The notes under the pieces: generated by a model
What the model was told of the DNA's origin: nothing
The model's input: only the letters and a program-made list of their open reading frames with translations
The model's database searches: none
Program-made: the position numbers and the translations under genes
NCBI GenBank assembly: GCA_001769215.1
Contig: MEOL01000014.1
Span: 1-64,000 of the forward strand
Reading direction: 5' to 3'
Length of the DNA stretch: 64,000 nucleotides
Source: Bacteroidetes bacterium GWF2_41_31
GTDB lineage: Bacteria; Bacteroidota; Bacteroidia; Bacteroidales; F082
Shown: piece after piece, positions 10,384 to 21,695 of the stretch
Layout of the letters: each line of letters opens with the position of its first letter
Position numbering within the stretch: position 1 is the stretch's first letter

Positions 10384-12111
10384 TTATTGCTCCGAAATGA
10401 TCGGAATAGTAAACGAAAACACGGAACCTTTTTCTCCTGATATACCACTCGGATCACTTTCTACCCAAATTTCTCCACGGTGTTTTTCAACAAACTCTTT
10501 ACACAGTATCAGTCCCAATCCGGTACCGACTTCATTTTGCGTGCCATAAGTTGAGTAATTTTCGTCGATACGGAACAATTTAGCTTTGACTTCATCGGAA
10601 ATACCAACACCATTGTCCTTCACTGTTACCAGCAAATTGCCCTGAACTTCCTCTGCCGAAACAACTATTTTCCCTCCCGGATAGGTAAATTTTATTGCAT
10701 TGGCAATCAGATTCCTCAACACAGTACCAATCATTTCTTTATCAGCAAACAAGGTGATATACCCGGGCAAAATCTTTTGAATCGAAATCGACTTTTCTTC
10801 TGCAACTCCACTAACCAACGAAATTGCATTGTCAATTGTACTCGTCATATCAAAATTTGCAGGTTTAAACTGCATTCGACCGGTTTGAGAGAGTGCCCAC
10901 TGCATCAGGTTGGTGAGTAATTCCATCGCCTGTTGCGACGATTGTTGAATAATTTGTGAATATTCTTCAACCGCCTTGTAATCCTTTTCTTTAACCAGTT
11001 CGACCAGAAGGCTGCTAAAACTAACAATGCAACCAAATGGGCTTCTGAGATCGTGAGCAATAATAGAGAAAAATTTATCCTTTTCAGCATTTAGCCTCTG
11101 AAGTTCTTCATTTTTCAGCCTGATCTCCTCCCCTTCCATATGCTGCCGTGTAACGTCTCTGGAAATGCCGAAAGTTCCCATGATATTCCCTTCCCTATCT
11201 AACAAAGGCATTTTCACTGTTGAAACCCAGGTGTCCGGACGATCCTCGTATGTTTCTTTTTCTTCAATACTCAATGGTTTTCCTGTACGGATAATTTCCT
11301 GTTCATCTTCAAATGCACGTTTTGAGTGCTCGTCGGTAAAGAAATCCAAATCTGATTTGCCGATTGCCTCATCAGGATCGTCCAATCCGAACAATTGGGC
11401 TTGAGACTTGTTTATTTTAACAAACCTGCTTTCCAAATCTTTAAAATAGATATGATCAGGAAGATAATCCATCAGTGTCCGCATGAGATGTTGTTGCTTT
11501 TCAAATGGCTCATCGTTCTTCTTCTTTTCAGAAATTTCAGCACTCTTGCCGATAAATGCTTCGGGTTTACCTTCATAATCTTTTATTAAAGCCGTCATTT
11601 GCCTATTAGTCTGTAGGATATCCCTCAGACTTTTACGATGCATGAGCAGATAAAAAAGAAAAAGCAACAAACTGAGCACCAATCCTCCTACAAGAAAAGC
11701 AAGTGTTTTATCGTATACCGACAGCCAAGGTGCGTTGTATTGAGATATGTATAAAATCCCATTTGTATTGTCGGATTCCAGCTCCTGTATTCCGATCAGT
11801 TCATCAGCGTACTTAAAGTTTACAACAGAAAATTGCCAGTCTCCTGTAGTTGCAGTATCAGAAAATGTGTTAGGTAAAGAATCATTCAGAAATATCAAAG
11901 GTGTACCATCGGACCGGGAAATCAGTTTTGAATTCATGTCCTCACAAAACATCCCGAACTTCTCTTTTTCCTGTTTTTTCGCCTGTTGGTATGATTGGTA
12001 GCTTACAATTGCCGTTATTAAAAACCCTCCGATCAGAATCAGGTTGGCATACAAAACATATCTATAACCGGGTTTTAAGGGTAATTTCTGATTTTCTGAA
12101 CCTACTCTCAT
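10384..12111 (-). CDS. membrane PAS-domain sensor histidine kinase
   Basis: Two TM segments, PAS (LMDYLPDHIYFKDLESRFVKINKSQAQLFG), H-box IIAHDLRSPFG, N/G boxes. Confidence 0.9.
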   Translation of the reverse strand: MRVGSENQKLPLKPGYRYVLYANLILIGGFLITAIVSYQSYQQAKKQEKEKFGMFCEDMNSKLISRSDGTPLIFLNDSLPNTFSDTATTGDWQFSVVNFKYADELIGIQELESDNTNGILYISQYNAPWLSVYDKTLAFLVGGLVLSLLLFLFYLLMHRKSLRDILQTNRQMTALIKDYEGKPEAFIGKSAEISEKKKNDEPFEKQQHLMRTLMDYLPDHIYFKDLESRFVKINKSQAQLFGLDDPDEAIGKSDLDFFTDEHSKRAFEDEQEIIRTGKPLSIEEKETYEDRPDTWVSTVKMPLLDREGNIMGTFGISRDVTRQHMEGEEIRLKNEELQRLNAEKDKFFSIIAHDLRSPFGCIVSFSSLLVELVKEKDYKAVEEYSQIIQQSSQQAMELLTNLMQWALSQTGRMQFKPANFDMTSTIDNAISLVSGVAEEKSISIQKILPGYITLFADKEMIGTVLRNLIANAIKFTYPGGKIVVSAEEVQGNLLVTVKDNGVGISDEVKAKLFRIDENYSTYGTQNEVGTGLGLILCKEFVEKHRGEIWVESDPSGISGEKGSVFSFTIPIISEQ

Positions 12112-12371: not shown

Positions 12372-14390
12372 ATGACAAACGCAATAATTTTAATGTATGT
12401 TTCATGGGCAACAACCATTCTGGCTGTGGTACTCATGTGTTTTATTCCTTCTGCAAAAAAATCAATCCTGGCAATCGTTACGGTGATCATCAATGCCATT
12501 GTAACAAGCATTCCTGCGATCCAGGCGTTGGGAGGCGCCACAAGTGATTTTTCCTTTTACGCGGGAACTTTTTTAGGCGATGTACCCATCCGGATTGATG
12601 GCCTTTCTGCATGGTTCATCCTGATCATCAATTTTACTTCCGTAACCGGGATTATCTATGGCACCGGTTATTTAAAAGCTTATAAAAACACGGCTTCTAA
12701 ACTCAGTTTACACTGGGTGTTATTTATCCTTTTTCATCTTTCAATGGTTTGGGTAACGCTTTTACAAAATGGGTTTGCCTTTCTCATTGCATGGGAAATT
12801 ATGTCGCTTACCTCGATGCTGCTCGTCATTTTTGATGGCCATAATACAAAAACCTTGCAAGCGGGTATTAATTACTTTGTCCAGATGCACATCAGCATTG
12901 TGTTTTTAACCATTGGATTTCTATGGGTTTACCTTGAAACAGGATCCTTTGGTTTTGATGCGTTTCAAACATTTTTTGCCTCCAACAACAACCTCTGGTT
13001 GTTTATCATCTTTTTTGTTGGATTTGGGCTTAAAGCAGGATTTATCCCGCTGCACAGCTGGTTGCCCCTTGCACACCCTGCCGCGCCTTCGCATGTGTCA
13101 GGTGTGATGTCGGGGGTGATTGTAAAGTTGGGTATTTATGGGTTGATCCGGGTGATTTCATATGTGCAATCTGATTTTATACTGTTGGGCGAAATCATTA
13201 TTTCCATTTCCATACTTACCGGATTATACGGCATCCTCAATGCAGCTATTCACCGCGATTTCAAAAAAATGCTGGCCTATTGCACCATCGAAAACATAGG
13301 AATTATAGGCATTGGCATTGGTCTGGGCATGATTGGTCTGGGAAGCAATTCGCCATTGCTTTATTATCTTGGTTTTGGAGGAGCGCTCCTGCATGTATTG
13401 AACCATTCATTATTTAAATCGATGCTCTTTTTTGCTGCGGGTTCGGTTTATCAGCAAACCCATACACGCGACATGGAGCGTTTGGGCGGATTGATAAAAA
13501 ACATGCCTCAAACCGCCATCATTTTTCTCATTGGAGCCATCGCCATCGCGGGAATCCCACCATTCAACGGGTTTGTTTCAGAATTTGTAATTTACAGCGG
13601 ACTGATAGAAGGATTAAAGTCGGATAACATCAACCTGATCAGCTTGTTGATCCTGTCGTTCGCGGGTCTTAGCCTGATTGGTGGCCTGTCGATTCTAACC
13701 TTCACCAAATCGTTTGGAACCCTGTTTTTAGGGAACCAACGCGAAACCTTGCCTCACCAACCTCATGAAGTGTCGCGTATCATGCTTTTCCCTCAATATC
13801 TTATCATAGCGGTTATGCTCAGTATAGCCTTTGTGCCACAGTGGTACCTGGCCATCGTGGGAAATCTTTTATCAGGAATGGCACTGGTTTCCCATCCAAT
13901 TGCTGAGGGATTTGAAGTCTCTTCCCTGGCTGTTTATTCAAAAACGTTGAGTCATATCAGTTTATATTCACTGCTCTTTATTGCAGTAATTGGTCTCTTT
14001 TGGATGATCAGACATTACTCACAAAAAAGCAAATCCATTATCGTGGGAAATACCTGGGGTTGCGCTTATGTGGCACCAAATAACCGGATGCAATACACCG
14101 GAAAATCCTACTCAAAACCGCTGGGTAAAATGTTCAGCTTTATGCTGATCGAAAAGAAAAGATACCCGGAAATCATGGCCGGGGAAATATTTCCTCAACC
14201 CAGAAAATACTCGTCGCACTACCTGGATTTTATTGAACATTATTTAATCGACAATGCAATCCGGCTCCTTTTGACGATTGTCAACTACTTTAAATTTATT
14301 CAAAACGGACGTGTACAATCCTATGTGATGTATGGCATCGTTTTTATACTTACCATCTTCATCCTGACACTGTTAAACCTTGTAAAATGA
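12372..14390 (+). CDS. HyfB/NuoL-like proton-conducting antiporter subunit, copy 1
   Basis: LIAWEIMSLTSM, GFGLKAGFIPLHSWLPLAHPAAPSHVSGVMSGVIVKLGIYG. Start placed at MTNAII; the upstream ORF extension looks non-coding. Confidence 0.88.
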   Translation: MTNAIILMYVSWATTILAVVLMCFIPSAKKSILAIVTVIINAIVTSIPAIQALGGATSDFSFYAGTFLGDVPIRIDGLSAWFILIINFTSVTGIIYGTGYLKAYKNTASKLSLHWVLFILFHLSMVWVTLLQNGFAFLIAWEIMSLTSMLLVIFDGHNTKTLQAGINYFVQMHISIVFLTIGFLWVYLETGSFGFDAFQTFFASNNNLWLFIIFFVGFGLKAGFIPLHSWLPLAHPAAPSHVSGVMSGVIVKLGIYGLIRVISYVQSDFILLGEIIISISILTGLYGILNAAIHRDFKKMLAYCTIENIGIIGIGIGLGMIGLGSNSPLLYYLGFGGALLHVLNHSLFKSMLFFAAGSVYQQTHTRDMERLGGLIKNMPQTAIIFLIGAIAIAGIPPFNGFVSEFVIYSGLIEGLKSDNINLISLLILSFAGLSLIGGLSILTFTKSFGTLFLGNQRETLPHQPHEVSRIMLFPQYLIIAVMLSIAFVPQWYLAIVGNLLSGMALVSHPIAEGFEVSSLAVYSKTLSHISLYSLLFIAVIGLFWMIRHYSQKSKSIIVGNTWGCAYVAPNNRMQYTGKSYSKPLGKMFSFMLIEKKRYPEIMAGEIFPQPRKYSSHYLDFIEHYLIDNAIRLLLTIVNYFKFIQNGRVQSYVMYGIVFILTIFILTLLNLVK

Positions 14391-16411
14391 CCATGATACC
14401 GGCCTTTTTAGCCATCGGTTTTTTTGTAATACTTACCATTCCTTTTCTAGGAGTAAAATACAAGGGAATACTGGTGTATATGGCTATCGTAGTCAATGCC
14501 GGCCTTACAGGATATCTGGCTATACAAGCATTGATGGGTCTGCCATTCGAAATTATTTTTCCAGGCAACATGGTCACCGGGGCCATTGCCCTTCGCCTGG
14601 ATGCCTTATCCGCCTGGTTTATATTGATCATTAATTTTATTTTTATTACCGGTGGGTTTTATGGCTTATTTTATATGAAAGCTTATCAAAACCAAAGTAA
14701 AAACCTCAGTCTTCATGGTATTGCTTTTGTTTTATTGTATAGTGCCCTCATCAGCCTGACGGTTATCCAAAATGGGATGGTGTTTCTGATTGCCTGGGAA
14801 ATTATGGCGCTTACTGCTTTTATCAGTGTGATTTTTGAACATGAGAAAATGGCAACCATCAAGGCGGGATTCAACTATCTCCTCCAGTCGCATGTGGCCA
14901 TCATCTTCCTGATGCTTGGATTTATGTGGGCGGCTTACAAAACCGGAAGTTATGATTTTCAGGTGTTGAGTAACTACACGGCAGGTGAGAAAGGCGCTGC
15001 CACCGTCATTCTGTTTACCACTTTTTTTGTTGGATTTGCCTTAAAGGCAGGTTTTGTTCCTTTTCATACCTGGCTTCCCTATGCCCATCCGGCGGCACCG
15101 GCACACATTTCAGGAATCATGTCGGGAGTTATGATTAAAATAGGAATATTTGGCATCCTGCGCATGATGTTGGTCATTAAACCGGACTTCGCCATCATTG
15201 GTTACATTATTTTAGTGGTATCAGTTATTTCCGGTTTGTATGGCGTGATGTTGGCCATCGTTCAGCACAACCTGAAAAGGCTGCTGGCCTACCACAGTAT
15301 CGAGAACATTGGCATTATCGGTATGGGTATTGGCTTGGGCAGTATTGGTTTAGGTACAGGCAACCTGGTTCTGGCTACCCTTGGATTTGCCGCCGCGTTG
15401 CTGCACGTCTGGAACCATGCCCTTTTCAAGTCGCTTTTATTTTTTACAGCGGGAAATGTATACCAGGCTACCCATACATTGAACATAGAGCAATTGGGTG
15501 GGTTGATCAAAAAGATGCCACAAACAGCATTCCTTTTCCTGATAGCTGCCATCGCTATCTCCGGACTTCCACCATTCAACGGCTTTATTTCAGAATTTAT
15601 TTTGTACAGCGGGTTGTACCACTGGTTGCTGGATGCCAGATTATTATCCTTGGTAGCGATTGTATTCGCGATACTCGGGCTGGTGATGATTGGTGGCCTG
15701 GCGATGTTGTGCTTCACCAAAGCCTTTGGCGTGGTTTTTTTAGGAAACGCGCGGCAAACATTTAAACACGAAGTCCATGAAGTGTCGTTTCAACAACTGA
15801 TTCCACTTTATTTGATTGCTTTTTTTATTGTCGCTATCGGGTTCTTCCCCGGTTTTTTCCTGAAACTGCTTATCGAACCTGTATCTTTACTTGCCGGAAA
15901 CAGTGGGGTTGCCGGTATTTTTGAGACCAATACCATGCAGACCATGCAGCAAATCAGTTGGGCGGCCTGGGGCTTCATCGCGCTGATTTCTGTTATCTTC
16001 ATGGTCAGGAAACTGGTATCGCGCAAACACACCATTGCAATTGAATCCACCTGGGGTTGTGGTTACGTGAAACCTACGGCCAATATGCAATATACGGCCA
16101 GTTCGTTTATCCGCTCCTATACTAAACTTTTCAAACCCTTGTTGTTATCGTATAAAAAAGAAAAGAATATCCAGGGTATCTTCCCCACCGATGGCTTTTT
16201 CGAGTCGCATCCTTACGATAAACTGGAAAAGTGGCTCTATGATACTCCCATCATGGAATTCAAATCTTTCATGAGCCGCTTTATCTTTCTTCAAAATGGA
16301 CGGCTTCAGTTTTATATTTTGTACGGGATTATTTTCATTATTTCAATTATATGTATTCCAATTGTTTACGATATGTTCATCCACCTTATAGGTTACTTTA
16401 AACAACTATAA
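14387..16411 (+). CDS. HyfB/NuoL-like proton-conducting antiporter subunit, copy 2
   Basis: LIAWEIMALTAFISVIFEH, GFALKAGFVPFHTWLPYAHPAAPAHISGIMSGVMIKIGIFG. Overlaps the upstream gene by 4 nt. Confidence 0.9.
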   Translation: MTMIPAFLAIGFFVILTIPFLGVKYKGILVYMAIVVNAGLTGYLAIQALMGLPFEIIFPGNMVTGAIALRLDALSAWFILIINFIFITGGFYGLFYMKAYQNQSKNLSLHGIAFVLLYSALISLTVIQNGMVFLIAWEIMALTAFISVIFEHEKMATIKAGFNYLLQSHVAIIFLMLGFMWAAYKTGSYDFQVLSNYTAGEKGAATVILFTTFFVGFALKAGFVPFHTWLPYAHPAAPAHISGIMSGVMIKIGIFGILRMMLVIKPDFAIIGYIILVVSVISGLYGVMLAIVQHNLKRLLAYHSIENIGIIGMGIGLGSIGLGTGNLVLATLGFAAALLHVWNHALFKSLLFFTAGNVYQATHTLNIEQLGGLIKKMPQTAFLFLIAAIAISGLPPFNGFISEFILYSGLYHWLLDARLLSLVAIVFAILGLVMIGGLAMLCFTKAFGVVFLGNARQTFKHEVHEVSFQQLIPLYLIAFFIVAIGFFPGFFLKLLIEPVSLLAGNSGVAGIFETNTMQTMQQISWAAWGFIALISVIFMVRKLVSRKHTIAIESTWGCGYVKPTANMQYTASSFIRSYTKLFKPLLLSYKKEKNIQGIFPTDGFFESHPYDKLEKWLYDTPIMEFKSFMSRFIFLQNGRLQFYILYGIIFIISIICIPIVYDMFIHLIGYFKQL

Positions 16412-16413
16412 TC

Positions 16414-17319
16414 ATGTTGAGTTTTATTTTAATACTCATCGCTGGTGCATTCTTCACAGGCATCATAATCCGGACGAAGAGCGTAGCCTCCGGGCGCAAA
16501 GGGCCAGGCATACTGCAACCAATAAATGATGTAGTGCGACTTTTTAAGAAAGGAGCAGTATACAGCGGGACCACCAGCTTTATTTTTCAAATGGCACCTA
16601 CCATTTATTTTTCATCGGTTGTCATGGCGATGATGTTGATTCCTTTTGGCCAATCGAAAGGGCTTATCAGTTTTAATGGCGACTTTGTGTTTTTCGCTTA
16701 TGTGTTGGCATTGGGCAAATTTTTCAGCATCATATCTGCCATGGATACAGGCAGCAGTTTCGAGGGGATGGGAGCCAGCCGTGAATCTCTTTACTCCTTG
16801 CTTGCCGAGCCCGCCTTCTTCATCCTGATGGGTTCGTTTGCCTTACTTACCGGCTACACTTCATTCCAGGAAATGTTCGCGGCTCTGCATCTCGGATCTT
16901 ACATTAGTTATGCCATTGCGATCCTGGCCACCTTTGTGCTGGTGATGATCGCGATGATCGAAAACAGCCGCATGCCCATCGATGACCCAAAAACTCACCT
17001 TGAACTTACGATGATCCATGAGGTCATGATTCTCGACAACAGCGGTTTCGATCTGGGATTGATACTCTCGGCAGGTTATCTAAAATTCGCCTTATACGGA
17101 GCTATCATCGTCAATCTTTTTATTGGAATGGTTCCCTATCCCTATGCCATACCCCTGTTTTTTGTCATTCAGTTTTTGCTGGCTATCATCATCGGGCTCA
17201 TCGAATCGTTCATCGCGCGTTTCAGGATGAGCCACAATCCCCAGTTTATTTTCGCGCTTACCTCGGTGAGTTTGCTGATATTCTTTGGTGTGCTGTTGGT
17301 ATTGGGAAAATTTATTTAA
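16414..17319 (+). CDS. HyfC/HycD/NuoH-like membrane subunit
   Basis: RKGPGILQPINDVVRLFKK, MIENSRMPIDDPKTHLELTMIHEVMILD. Confidence 0.92.
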   Translation: MLSFILILIAGAFFTGIIIRTKSVASGRKGPGILQPINDVVRLFKKGAVYSGTTSFIFQMAPTIYFSSVVMAMMLIPFGQSKGLISFNGDFVFFAYVLALGKFFSIISAMDTGSSFEGMGASRESLYSLLAEPAFFILMGSFALLTGYTSFQEMFAALHLGSYISYAIAILATFVLVMIAMIENSRMPIDDPKTHLELTMIHEVMILDNSGFDLGLILSAGYLKFALYGAIIVNLFIGMVPYPYAIPLFFVIQFLLAIIIGLIESFIARFRMSHNPQFIFALTSVSLLIFFGVLLVLGKFI

Positions 17320-17336
17320 TTTAAAATCCGTGTAAA

Positions 17337-17969
17337 ATGATAGATGTACTGTTAATCACCCTTCTGATCACTCTTTTTTACATGGCCATTGCCAATCGGT
17401 TGATGACCTATATCAAAGTCCTGGCGATTCAAGGCGTATTGCTTTTCATAGTTGCATTTGTTCAACTTGAGGAAATAAACCCATTGAACCTGGGATTTAT
17501 TCTGTTGGAAACCATTGTGGTAAAAGCCATCGTCGTTCCCTTTTTTCTGGTATACATCCTCCGGAAAAACAACATCACGCGCGAAGCGGAGCCCTTTGTG
17601 TCCAATTTCTTTTCGCTCATCATCACTACCCTCATCGTGGTGCTTACCGTTTTGTTGTCGAATACCATACAGGAAGCCCGCCTGGATAAAATCTTTTTTA
17701 TCGTTGCCATGTCGACCCTGTTTTTCGGACTGTACCTGATCGCCACCAGGCGCAAAATCATTACCCATGTGATGGGATACCTGGTGATTGAAAATGGCAT
17801 ATTTGTGCTATCACTGGCAGTGGGAAACGAAATGCCCATGCTGGTAAACCTGGGAATTATGCTGGATATTTTTGCCAGTGTATTGATTTTGGGCATATTC
17901 CTGAATAAGATTGGTGATGTTTTTAAAGATGTAGATGTGCAACAACTCAATAGTTTAAAAGACGTTTAA
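17337..17969 (+). CDS. HyfE-like (NuoK-like) membrane subunit
   Basis: Hydrophobic multi-TM protein, FILLETIVVKAIVVPFFL, VIENGIFVLSLAVG, position in the hyf-like operon. Confidence 0.85.
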   Translation: MIDVLLITLLITLFYMAIANRLMTYIKVLAIQGVLLFIVAFVQLEEINPLNLGFILLETIVVKAIVVPFFLVYILRKNNITREAEPFVSNFFSLIITTLIVVLTVLLSNTIQEARLDKIFFIVAMSTLFFGLYLIATRRKIITHVMGYLVIENGIFVLSLAVGNEMPMLVNLGIMLDIFASVLILGIFLNKIGDVFKDVDVQQLNSLKDV

Positions 17970-17981
17970 AACCGAATTTTC

Positions 17982-19409
17982 ATGATACTAACCTACCTGA
18001 TCGGAGCACTGATTATTGCCGTTGGAATATCTGTAAACAGGAATAAATGGGTCAATTATAGCCTGGCGGGAATCTTCCTTCTCCTGCAGTGGATGTTCAC
18101 CATATACGCTTGCTTCCATCTCAACGAAACAGACCTTGGCTACTTTACCTATGATTCACTTGGCATTCTGCTGCTGATTACCCTGAGCATCATCGCGATT
18201 CCTGCCATGATCCATAGCAAGATATACGTAGAGAATCACCACGAAAGCGGAGCCGTCAGGGCCATTTATTTTCTTTCCATGGTTGGTTTGATCACAGCCA
18301 TCGGGGCAGGATACCTGGCCAACCACATCGCAGTAACCTGGATATTTACTGAAATCACCACGCTGAGTGCTTCGGCTCTTATTTATCACCACCGCAACAA
18401 ACTGGCGCTCGAAGGAACATGGAAATATGTCTTCATTGGTGCTATCAGCATCACCTTTGTTTTTATAGGCATCTTGTTTTTAAGTCTCTCCATTCAGCAG
18501 TCAGGAACAGGTCACATGTCGTATGCCAGCTTACTAGAAAATGCCCACCTGATGAACCCTTTCTGGTTGCGGTTAGCCTTTCTGTTTATTTTCACGGGCT
18601 ACACGGTAAAACTAGGGTTAGTTCCCATGTTTACAGCTGGTGTGGATGCCAAAGACAAAGCCCCGGCACCGGCAGGGGCACTGCTTTCGAGCGTTTTGAT
18701 GAACCTGGGTTTCGTGGGGGTTTTTCGTATGTACATCATCATGGCCAACACCCCTTTGCATCATTGGGCCAATCTGGTCATCGGCATCTCGGCTTTTTTG
18801 TCGCTGTTTGTGGCTACTGTATACATGATCAAGGTAAAAAACATCAAAAGGATGTTGGCCTACTCAAGCATCGAACACATGGGTTTGGTGATGCTGGGTA
18901 TTGCAGCGGGAGGCATTGGCTACTATGCTGCCATTTTGCACATCATATTACATGCTTTTGTAAAATCGAGTTTATTTTTTCAATACAACCAGTTGTACCG
19001 CGTGTTTCAAAGCAAAAGCATCTACCTGGTCGGAAATTATTTTAAATACAACACCACGGGCGCCATGGTACTTTTGCTTGGATTTATCAGTGCCGCGGCC
19101 ATGCCACCTTCGGGATTGTTTGTGAGTGAGTTTCTCATTTTCCGCTCTATGTTCGAGGCGCATCAATTGGTACTTCTGATCGCGGTACTGTTACTGCTCA
19201 CCATGATTATCTGGGCCTTTGGAAAGAATATTCTCAAGATATTGTTTATTCCGCCTGTTGGCTTTAACGAAAACGATGTGCCCCGAATCAGTCCATGGGA
19301 GTCGGTAACACAATTTGTGCTGCTGGCTCTCGCAGTCTATCTTGGTTTAAACCCACCGGTTGAATTTGTGCATCTTATCGAGGAAAGTCTCATTCTTTTA
19401 CCCCACTGA
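17982..19409 (+). CDS. HyfF-like antiporter subunit
   Basis: TVKLGLVPMFTAGVDAKDKAPAPAGALLSSVLMNLGF, KRMLAYSSIEHMGLV. Confidence 0.88.
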   Translation: MILTYLIGALIIAVGISVNRNKWVNYSLAGIFLLLQWMFTIYACFHLNETDLGYFTYDSLGILLLITLSIIAIPAMIHSKIYVENHHESGAVRAIYFLSMVGLITAIGAGYLANHIAVTWIFTEITTLSASALIYHHRNKLALEGTWKYVFIGAISITFVFIGILFLSLSIQQSGTGHMSYASLLENAHLMNPFWLRLAFLFIFTGYTVKLGLVPMFTAGVDAKDKAPAPAGALLSSVLMNLGFVGVFRMYIIMANTPLHHWANLVIGISAFLSLFVATVYMIKVKNIKRMLAYSSIEHMGLVMLGIAAGGIGYYAAILHIILHAFVKSSLFFQYNQLYRVFQSKSIYLVGNYFKYNTTGAMVLLLGFISAAAMPPSGLFVSEFLIFRSMFEAHQLVLLIAVLLLLTMIIWAFGKNILKILFIPPVGFNENDVPRISPWESVTQFVLLALAVYLGLNPPVEFVHLIEESLILLPH

Positions 19410-19410
19410 C

Positions 19411-20910
19411 ATGAACTACATTCGTATCACCAACCACCAGACCATACCTGTTTCAGATATCCCTGAACTGGATTATAAATCATTTTTTGAACTGAATACA
19501 GGATTTATCATCGATCACCCCGAACGACATTGTGTGAATTATTTCGGTTATCACGAAGACAATCACATCAAACTGATTTGTTGTATTGCCGATGATGAAA
19601 CGCACGAGATATATGTTTCTTCGTGTTGCACAGCCATTCAATCAAAGTTGCAGGCTTTTACTTCTAAACTTTTGTGTTTTGAAAAGTTCGAACGTGAGAT
19701 ACATGAAAACTTTGGGCTCGATTTCATCGATCATCCCTGGCTGAAACCAGTGAGGTACGCATTTAACCGGGCTGACAAAACCAAGACCATCGCCAATTAT
19801 CCGTTTTTCAAAATCGAAGGTGAGGAATTACATGAAGTCGGGGTTGGTCCCATTCACGCCGGGGTGATTGAGCCGGGGCATTTCAGATTTATCTGCAATG
19901 GCGAACAGATTTTACACCTCGAAATACAACTGGGTTACCAACACCGGGGAATTGAATCACTTTTTCTGAAGAAGAAATCGATTCTGGAGCGGGCAACCCT
20001 TGCCGAAAACATTGCAGGTGATACGGTGGTTGGACATACTTCCGCATTTTCGTATCTATGGGAAAGTTTGTGTGGCTATCAGGCCTCACGGGACATGCAT
20101 TTTTCGCGCATCCTGGCGCTCGAAATGGAACGAATGGCCATTCATACGGGTGATTTAAGTGCCGTTTGCACGGACATAGCCTATCAGCTGGGTAGTTCCG
20201 TGTACGGACGACTCAGGACTCCTCTGATTAACTTTATGCAGGAATGGGGCGGCAACCGGTTGTCAAAAGGCCTCATCCGGCCCGGACGCGATCAATTTCC
20301 ATTTACCTCCGGTTTGGCAGAAAGAATAAAAAATATTTTTGACGCCTTTGAACCTGATTTTAATGAGATAAGCGATGAATTGCTTAAACTACCCAGTGTT
20401 TTATCAAGACTCGAACGCACCGGTGTGGTTACACCAGCTGATGTTCAGGAAATTGGCGCCGTTGGCATGACTGCCCGGATGGCCGGGATCAATCGTGACA
20501 TCCGTACATCGCATCCATACAGTTTATACCCTGAATTAAACCATGAACCCATTTTAAAGCACCATGGTGATGTGTATTCACGTGTTTTGATCAGAAGACA
20601 GGAAGTGAACCAATCCATGGCATACGTAAGAGATTTGTTAAACCAACTTCCTGAACAGACCACAACCAATACCGAATTGGGTAAGCCAAAGGCGAACTCT
20701 TTTACACTTTCAATGATTGAAGGTTGGCGCGGCGAAATTTGTCATTGTGCCATCACGAATGAAAAAGGAGATCTGGTACTTTACAAAATCAAGGATCCTT
20801 CTTTTCATAACTGGCTTGCATTGGCTCTGTCGGTGAGAAACAACGAGATATCCGATTTTCCCATTTGCAACAAAAGTTTTAACCTTTCATATTCAGGCCA
20901 CGATTTATAA
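19411..20910 (+). CDS. HyfG-like (NuoC-NuoD fusion) hydrogenase-related large subunit lacking NiFe ligands
   Basis: GVGPIHAGVIEPGHFRF, LQLGYQHRGIE; L1 position reads ENIAGDTVVGH; C-terminus reads DFPICNKSFNLSYSGHDL. Confidence 0.88.
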   Translation: MNYIRITNHQTIPVSDIPELDYKSFFELNTGFIIDHPERHCVNYFGYHEDNHIKLICCIADDETHEIYVSSCCTAIQSKLQAFTSKLLCFEKFEREIHENFGLDFIDHPWLKPVRYAFNRADKTKTIANYPFFKIEGEELHEVGVGPIHAGVIEPGHFRFICNGEQILHLEIQLGYQHRGIESLFLKKKSILERATLAENIAGDTVVGHTSAFSYLWESLCGYQASRDMHFSRILALEMERMAIHTGDLSAVCTDIAYQLGSSVYGRLRTPLINFMQEWGGNRLSKGLIRPGRDQFPFTSGLAERIKNIFDAFEPDFNEISDELLKLPSVLSRLERTGVVTPADVQEIGAVGMTARMAGINRDIRTSHPYSLYPELNHEPILKHHGDVYSRVLIRRQEVNQSMAYVRDLLNQLPEQTTTNTELGKPKANSFTLSMIEGWRGEICHCAITNEKGDLVLYKIKDPSFHNWLALALSVRNNEISDFPICNKSFNLSYSGHDL

Positions 20911-20918
20911 AAAGAATT

Positions 20919-21695
20919 ATGTTCGATAACCTCAAAATAGTTTTTCACCAGGGCAAACAGTTTATTCCCGATGTAACCACGGCAAAAGTGCCCGGCATCT
21001 ATCGTGGAAGGCCCATCATCAGTGGTGTACAAGTAAATGAAGCTGAATTACAAGGACTTTGTCCGGCCAATGCCATTGCCACCAAACCTGTTAGCATCGA
21101 TTTGGGCAAATGCACTTTTTGTGGAGAATGTGCCCTCCGTTTCCCGGAAAAAATCACATTTACAACCGACTACAAAATTTCGACCAACGAACGTGAGCGC
21201 CTGATCATTAAAGAAGGAGATGAAAAACCTGTGGAGGTAAATCCTGAAACCGTCAGAAGAGAAATTCACCAGGTTTTTGGACGATCGCTTAAACTCAGGC
21301 AGGTATCTGCCGGTGGTGACAACAGCTGCGAGTGGGAATTGAATGCCGCCATCAATGTGCAGTTCGATATGGGACGGTTTGGGATTGAGTTTGTCGCTTC
21401 ACCCCGCCATGCCGACGGGATTGTGATCACCGGCCCCATCACCGAAAATATGGCAGAACCACTGCGCATTGCATACGACGCCGTTCCCGATCCAAAAATA
21501 ATCGTTCTGGTTGGAACAGATGCCATCAGTGGTGGTTTGTTTGCAGATAGTCCGGCCATCGACCGTGGTTTTCTGGATCAGTATCCCGTTGATTTGTACA
21601 TTCCGGGCAATCCGGCCCACCCACTCACCATTATTAACGGATTGTTGGATTTAACCAGGAAAAAGGAGCTTATTCGTTTAATTCATCCTGTTTAA
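20919..21695 (+). CDS. HyfH-HyfI-like fusion: ferredoxin-like segment plus NuoB-like subunit with degenerate cluster ligands
   Basis: GLCPANAIA...CTFCGECALRFP; SPRHADGIVITGPITENMAEPLRIAYDAVPDPKIIVLVGTDAISGG; VDLYIPGNPAHP. Confidence 0.87.
   Translation: MFDNLKIVFHQGKQFIPDVTTAKVPGIYRGRPIISGVQVNEAELQGLCPANAIATKPVSIDLGKCTFCGECALRFPEKITFTTDYKISTNERERLIIKEGDEKPVEVNPETVRREIHQVFGRSLKLRQVSAGGDNSCEWELNAAINVQFDMGRFGIEFVASPRHADGIVITGPITENMAEPLRIAYDAVPDPKIIVLVGTDAISGGLFADSPAIDRGFLDQYPVDLYIPGNPAHPLTIINGLLDLTRKKELIRLIHPV

Follow-up and report, generated by a model that had tools for sequence, protein, structure and literature searches.

A predicted Ehr complex of Bacteroidota whose small subunit has lost the ligand set of the proximal [4Fe-4S] cluster

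What kind of complex is built around a protein with the fold of a hydrogenase large subunit in which the residues that should hold nickel and iron have been replaced? The question is raised by an uninterrupted open reading frame of 499 aa at positions 19411–20910 (+) of the window, by which we mean the whole stretch of 64,000 nucleotides analysed here (contig MEOL01000014.1 of Bacteroidetes bacterium GWF2_41_31). Its product is NuoC+NuoD-like, and its best sequence matches among solved structures are HycE, from the formate hydrogenlyase of E. coli (6e-33), and the large subunit of MBH (2.8e-32). The AlphaFold2 model (pLDDT 90.8) is closest in fold to HycE (7z0s_E, TM 0.88 by query length) and then to NuoCD, which answers the superposition proposed by an earlier, sequence-only reading of this DNA. 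In the phmmer alignment with HycE, the L1 region (E199-N-I-A202-G203-D204-T205-V-V-G-H209; 20005–20037, +) pairs without a gap (LSDRVCGICGFAHS / LAENIAGDTVVGHTS), with A202 and T205 at the positions of the two L1 cysteines. In L2, SLDPCYSC of HycE pairs with SFNLSYSG, and S493 and G496 stand in place of both cysteines. All four cysteines of the NiFe site are replaced, as the sequence-only reading had claimed, with alanine and threonine in L1. It had also described DPCxxC as absent: both of its cysteines are indeed gone, but the position itself is present and filled by NLSYSG, within a C-terminal segment (N487-K-S-F-N-L-S493-Y-S-G496-H-D-L499; 20869–20907, +) that sits there gap-free.

The large subunit is encoded by gene 6 of seven co-directional genes (12372–21695). 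The first gene encodes an EhrA-type antiporter-like subunit 1 (HyfB/NuoL-like, 672 aa; 12372–14390, +, with the start placed at the first in-frame Met within its conserved portion), matched by PF00361 (3.7e-54) and by the NCBIfam model of hydrogenase 4 subunit B (5.9e-148). It is followed by a second antiporter-like subunit (HyfB-like, 674 aa; 14387–16411, +) recognized by profile matches and conserved key residues, a NuoH/HyfC-like membrane anchor (301 aa; 16414–17319, +; PF00146, 7.2e-34) in which E183, E197 and E203, among others, are conserved, a HyfE-like membrane subunit (210 aa; 17337–17969, +; NCBIfam hydrogenase 4 membrane subunit, 2.8e-20) and a HyfF/NuoN-like antiporter subunit (475 aa; 17982–19409, +; PF00361, 2.7e-40, and hydrogenase 4 subunit F models). 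Finally, downstream of the large subunit, a small subunit combines ferredoxin-like and NuoB-like domains (258 aa; 20919–21695, +; PF01058, 1.1e-20). Antiporter, NuoH-like, HyfE-like, HyfF-like, large and small subunits are thus found in one operon, with a group-4-like large subunit devoid of NiFe-binding cysteines, which is the composition of the energy-converting hydrogenase-related (Ehr) complexes, which are kin of group 4 hydrogenases but lack the Ni- and Fe-binding residues (PMC6349859, PMC10284858, PMC7304191). Ehr occurs in G. sulfurreducens, where its abundance is higher on formate (PMC7894505). The gene order A-B-C-D-L-S recurs in relatives of many phyla, Geobacteraceae included, and the large-subunit tree separates all Ehr entries from the group-4/complex-I outgroup, with the clade of the window nested within Ehr. 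By operon, sequence and tree, the predicted product of 19411–20910 is the large subunit of an Ehr complex.

The L1 G-D pair and the terminus DFPxxNKSxxxSYxGxDL are near-invariant among about 90 Ehr large subunits. The replacement of the NiFe site in the window is therefore not a matter of chance, and both the G-D pair and NKSFNLSYxGxDL mark Ehr as a whole rather than the window protein. The sequence-only reading had seen in the patterned C-terminus the possible signature of a different active or docking site; the pattern is conserved, but it is Ehr-wide and occupies the homologous position of DPCxxC, and we rejected a new docking motif for this reason. In Gastranaerophilales and close entries (L053, L057–L059, L064, L066, L067, L069, L076, L083 and L094), Ehr large subunits keep one L1 cysteine (ESVCGDS or ESICGDS), possibly an intermediate of NiFe ligand loss. 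As for the surroundings of Ehr, most operons have one HyfB-like antiporter gene and the tandem pair (12372–16411 in the window), which suggests a longer membrane arm, is restricted to close relatives of the window. A PAS-domain histidine kinase gene (10384–12111, minus) is divergent from the window operon; L037 and L078 also have genes of a related kinase type close to Ehr, and L156 has both a kinase and a response regulator there. A Variovorax plasmid (L157:2845-17368) carries an Ehr operon less than 4 kb away from another operon of the hydrogenase-4-like type.

Could the complex still work as a NiFe hydrogenase that uses unusual ligands? Its genome (G000) does encode HypD (C28:54987) and, apart from Ehr, genuine NiFe hydrogenases (C34:44604-46163 and C28:47764-49671). 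On the other hand, the four cysteines are gone, HypD is absent from 18 of the 26 genomes carrying window-type Ehr, and the large subunit stops at the DL position, beyond which group-4 hydrogenases (L014–L016, with DPCYCCTER at this place) have an extension of about 34 residues. On these grounds we rejected a hydrogenase with aberrant ligands as extremely improbable, in line with the view of the sequence-only reading that the protein is not a hydrogenase despite its fold.

A second loss, more unusual than that of the NiFe ligands and not raised by the sequence-only reading, is apparent from the sequence of the neighbouring small subunit, the AF2 model of which (pLDDT 92.3) has the MBH small subunit (6cfw_J) and HycG (7z0s_G) as best folds. 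Of the four cysteines that would hold the proximal [4Fe-4S] cluster (N2), three have given way to other residues: the former ligands 1 and 2 are D134 and C137 (21318–21329, +), ligand 3 is D201 (21519–21521, +) and ligand 4 is N231 (21609–21611, +), positions 134, 201 and 231 being cysteines in N2-intact Ehr. These relatives carry the four cysteines in the motifs GxCNxCE, GxCA and PGCPP. In our own comparison, the N2 ligand set is general in other Ehr, and the window lacks it. The ligands of the ferredoxin-like [4Fe-4S] cluster (C48, C65, C68 and C71; 21060–21131, +) are kept, and cysteines of this type are conserved in every Ehr small subunit possessing that domain, a sign that selection may still act on some electron transfer or on a function of this cluster. 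No obvious substitute for the small subunit is supplied in trans by this genome, whose other NuoB-family proteins are the NuoB of complex I and two encoded beside hydrogenase large subunits.

The 108 Ehr small subunits compared fall into two N2 states: CCCC occurs in 52, drawn from many phyla, and the other 56 have at most one of the four cysteines, with no intermediates. In the 56 N2-lost small subunits, position 134 is D (54), E (1) or A (1), position 137 is C (42), V (4), N (3), A (2), D (2) or another residue (Y, H and S also occur), position 201 is D (52), E (3) or H (1) and position 231 is N (51), A (4) or S (1). All 56 are acidic at 134 or 137 and carry D/E/H at 201, including two apparent swaps, A134/D137 in L036 and E134/H137 in L045. 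Aspartate ligates Fe–S clusters in some proteins, and a heterodox cluster in the DCDN form is conceivable, but 14 of the 56 have no cysteine at any of the four positions.

On the large-subunit tree, the N2-lost entries form one clade (49 entries, SH-aLRT 100), to which L013/L100 must be added, and the N2 label requires two changes compared with an average of 27 in shuffles; the tree is of a quick kind, and L013 is a long branch of unsure exact placement. The clade is made up of Bacteroidota from several orders, with the exception of one planctomycete MAG, whereas CCCC is kept by Bacteroidota Ehr outside it (L070, L078, L090, L129–L140 and L142) and by Ignavibacteriota L068. Among 395 genomes of the same class as the window, 15 of 23 matches (that of the window included) have N2-lost small subunits, a prevalence of about 4%, and one further match, L116, is a partial operon without the small subunit. 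As judged from these sequences, the N2 ligand set of the Bacteroidota clade appears to have been lost once and never regained. The other case, L100, is the whole contig around L013, from a fragmented assembly, and carries a complete six-gene Ehr operon (L100:539-7752, minus) in the order S-A-B-C-D-L. Its small subunit has 175 residues, no ferredoxin domain and D, C, D and D at the N2 positions, and the contig has no further 80-residue ORF bearing an Fe–S motif; the membrane arm is kept, with no Fe–S ligand set in any subunit of the operon and no NiFe ligands. The nearest kin of L013/L100, L143 and L144 (44 and 42% identical), keep CCCC, so this loss is independent of that in Bacteroidota. Searches for relatives of L100 returned no further N2-lost case, making it a single one so far. 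Small subunits without a ferredoxin domain but with intact N2 ligands occur in proteobacterial Ehr (Azospirillum, Rhizobium and Methylocalor).

The main alternative to a mere loss is that the N2 site holds another metal centre or a mixed-ligand cluster (D134, C/D/H137, D201 and N231), with redox or Lewis-acid activity coupled to the pumps. The constant acids at 134 or 137 and the D/E/H at 201 across all 56 small subunits, swaps included, speak for it, as does the independent loss in L100, which also has Asp at N2 positions 1 and 3, a substitution for Cys that takes two base changes. With 137 free and 231 occupied by N, A or S, however, only two plausible ligands are constant, and we regard this alternative as unlikely.

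We may ask next whether the remainder of the complex is degenerating. Of the large-subunit columns conserved in N2-intact Ehr, 84 of 91 are kept in the N2-lost clade, leaving the pocket intact, and 41 of 50 in the small subunit, where the N2 cysteines account for four of the nine changed. The antiporter Lys/Glu/His residues, like the acidic residues in the NuoH-like subunit, are equally conserved in N2-lost and N2-intact Ehr; E138, K220, K251 and E403 of the antiporter-like subunits are invariant in both states, as expected of Mrp-like subunits, and the key residues are conserved in both antiporter copies of the window. Pairwise dN/dS values against congeners (0.09–0.10 for the large subunit, 0.11–0.12 for the small subunit and about 0.04 for the HyfF-like subunit) indicate purifying selection on the window operon. 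A decaying hydrogenase remnant does find a possible example in genome G239, which keeps only adjacent HyfF-like and large-subunit genes of Ehr, the other subunits being missing there (L154:10150-12953). For the window, the intact ORFs, the low dN/dS and the persistence of a single, well-conserved clade over several Bacteroidota orders refute pseudogenization, and decay is very improbable.

How could such a complex work? Without N2, the distance from the ferredoxin-type cluster to the pocket of the large subunit should exceed the useful tunnelling range, and electrons would not tunnel from one to the other. A pocket that gets no electrons would support neither hydrogenase nor quinone-reductase nor MBS-type chemistry. 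What the sequences show directly is that the ligands are lost and the rest is conserved; from this we infer the function, and ion transport is predicted from homology. In our preferred reading, on which our judgement is evenly balanced, the complex is a Mrp-like ion exchanger or pump without electron transfer to the large subunit, its N2 set having been lost once in the Bacteroidota clade. The conserved pocket and the membrane arm would then work in a coupling that needs no redox chemistry, in the simplest case Mrp-type ion exchange; the peripheral arm would act by binding, protonation or conformational gating, and the remaining ferredoxin-type cluster may sense redox state or play a structural part. 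As a protonatable site, the Asp pair found in place of two N2 ligands may substitute for the proton-coupled role of N2; the acid at 134 or 137, the D/E/H at 201 and the Asp pair of L100 would all fit such a replacement. A broader proposal, plausible if a little short of evenly balanced, is that a branch of the complex I superfamily has abandoned electron transfer to the coupling site while keeping pumps, pocket and coupling arm, with conformational or ligand-driven action, and that this evolved at least twice, the count being the Bacteroidota clade and L100.

The four ferredoxin-type cysteines kept in every small subunit with the domain could instead mean that the complex is still redox-active, with electrons entering and leaving via the ferredoxin-domain cluster through a protein partner and bypassing the large-subunit pocket. 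Yet we looked for a conserved redox partner gene beside the N2-lost operons and found none, no conserved oxidoreductase gene adjoining them; moreover, such a route leaves the strict conservation of the pocket without a reason, and L100 lacks even the ferredoxin-domain cluster. We consider this route doubtful.

The neighbouring genes raise another possibility, namely that Ehr takes part in inorganic-carbon or anion handling, with the pumps coupled to a non-redox reaction in the pocket such as CO2 hydration, as in NDH-1MS or DAB/MpsAB. In eight of 42 Ehr genomes, SulP genes (PF00916) occur no more than about 8 kb away from Ehr, compared with about 0.15 expected by a uniform-placement estimate. 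They are found inside the operon (L144:6978-9137, a SulP-STAS-PTS_EIIA_2 fusion between the large- and small-subunit genes), directly after the small-subunit gene (L036:5998-8199, L045:12468-14087, L146:2614-4281 and L152:6595-8298) or upstream (L148:786-2492 and L153:577-2286), and L036 also has a weak Pro_CA match beside SulP. The order Ehr–SulP–porin-like recurs in three distant taxa (L036, L146 and L152; in L036 an additional gene separates SulP from the porin), the porin-like gene having no Pfam match. A gene with HTH_17 and PTS_EIIA_2, likely a dedicated Ehr regulator, stands beside N2-intact operons at 11 loci of several phyla (L050, L070, L072, L087, L090–L093 and L147–L149; Pfam checked for L070, L091 and L148) and at none of the N2-lost loci. 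Together, the SulP and HTH-PTS_EIIA_2 neighbours point to anion or carbon handling. Nevertheless, five of the eight SulP cases come from one family, SulP substrates are varied, operons of the N2-lost clade seldom have a SulP neighbour, and the genome of the window has no SulP, which led us to reject SulP as a necessary partner there. Nor does beta-carbonic anhydrase show a consistent anticorrelation with Ehr: within the genus of the window, G000–G003 have Ehr without the enzyme and G004 the enzyme without Ehr, and the enzyme is present in three of 12 relatives with Ehr compared with 27 of 49 without, but in the wider sample 11 of 16 N2-lost genomes have it too. Replacement of carbonic anhydrase by Ehr, suggestive in the genus, is unsupported in the wider set and the test is negative overall; we hold carbon or anion handling to be quite improbable.

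The NiFe-ligand-free large subunit of Ehr was already known; what appears to be new is the N2-less variant. A description of it was not found in the open-access literature, a scope outside which lies Marreiros et al. (2013), reportedly the paper that defined Ehr. A key problem for complex I research is how redox chemistry in the peripheral arm drives ion pumping in distant membrane subunits, and a clade with pumps, coupling elements and pocket but no last cluster makes it possible to ask what role the arm would have when no electrons pass. If the presence of N2 makes no difference to how well the pocket is conserved, the function for which Ehr keeps it may be something other than electron transfer. 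In addition, Ehr proteins are easily misannotated as subunits of hydrogenase or NADH-quinone oxidoreductase.

The known Ehr complexes have the same subunit set as the window, the order A-B-C-D-L-S, a NiFe-less large subunit and the C-terminal NKSFNLSYxGxDL, but those of Geobacteraceae and most other phyla keep the proximal-cluster ligands that the clade of the window has lost, and the second HyfB-like antiporter sets the window and its close relatives apart. Group 4 NiFe hydrogenases (FHL/Hyf and MBH) share the folds of the large subunit (HycE, TM 0.88) and of the small subunit, and the equivalent of MbhL E21 is kept as E154, whereas their two NiFe CxxC motifs, C-terminal extension and N2 set are all missing from the window. 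The sulfane sulfur reductase MBS is, like the window complex, a member of the complex I family without a NiFe site; its proximal cluster is itself the catalyst (PMC7684303). In complex I and MBH electrons cross the proximal cluster to the substrate. The chemistry of MBS/Mbx takes place on a proximal [4Fe-4S] cluster held by cysteines of the MbsJ type, a ligand set that the window does not have. Respiratory complex I has homologous large (NuoCD), small (NuoB) and membrane subunits; the window has neither the NADH module nor the N2 ligands, and of the quinone site (Nqo4 numbering) Tyr87 is replaced by G203 and the region of His38 aligns to I153/E154, where the local alignment is less certain. 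Finally, Mrp and DAB/NDH-1MS, with ion-translocating subunits of the NuoL type and no hydrogenase chemistry, are possible functional analogues of the window complex, although Mrp and DAB have no NuoB/NuoCD-like peripheral arm and NDH-1MS keeps full electron transfer, both unlike the window.
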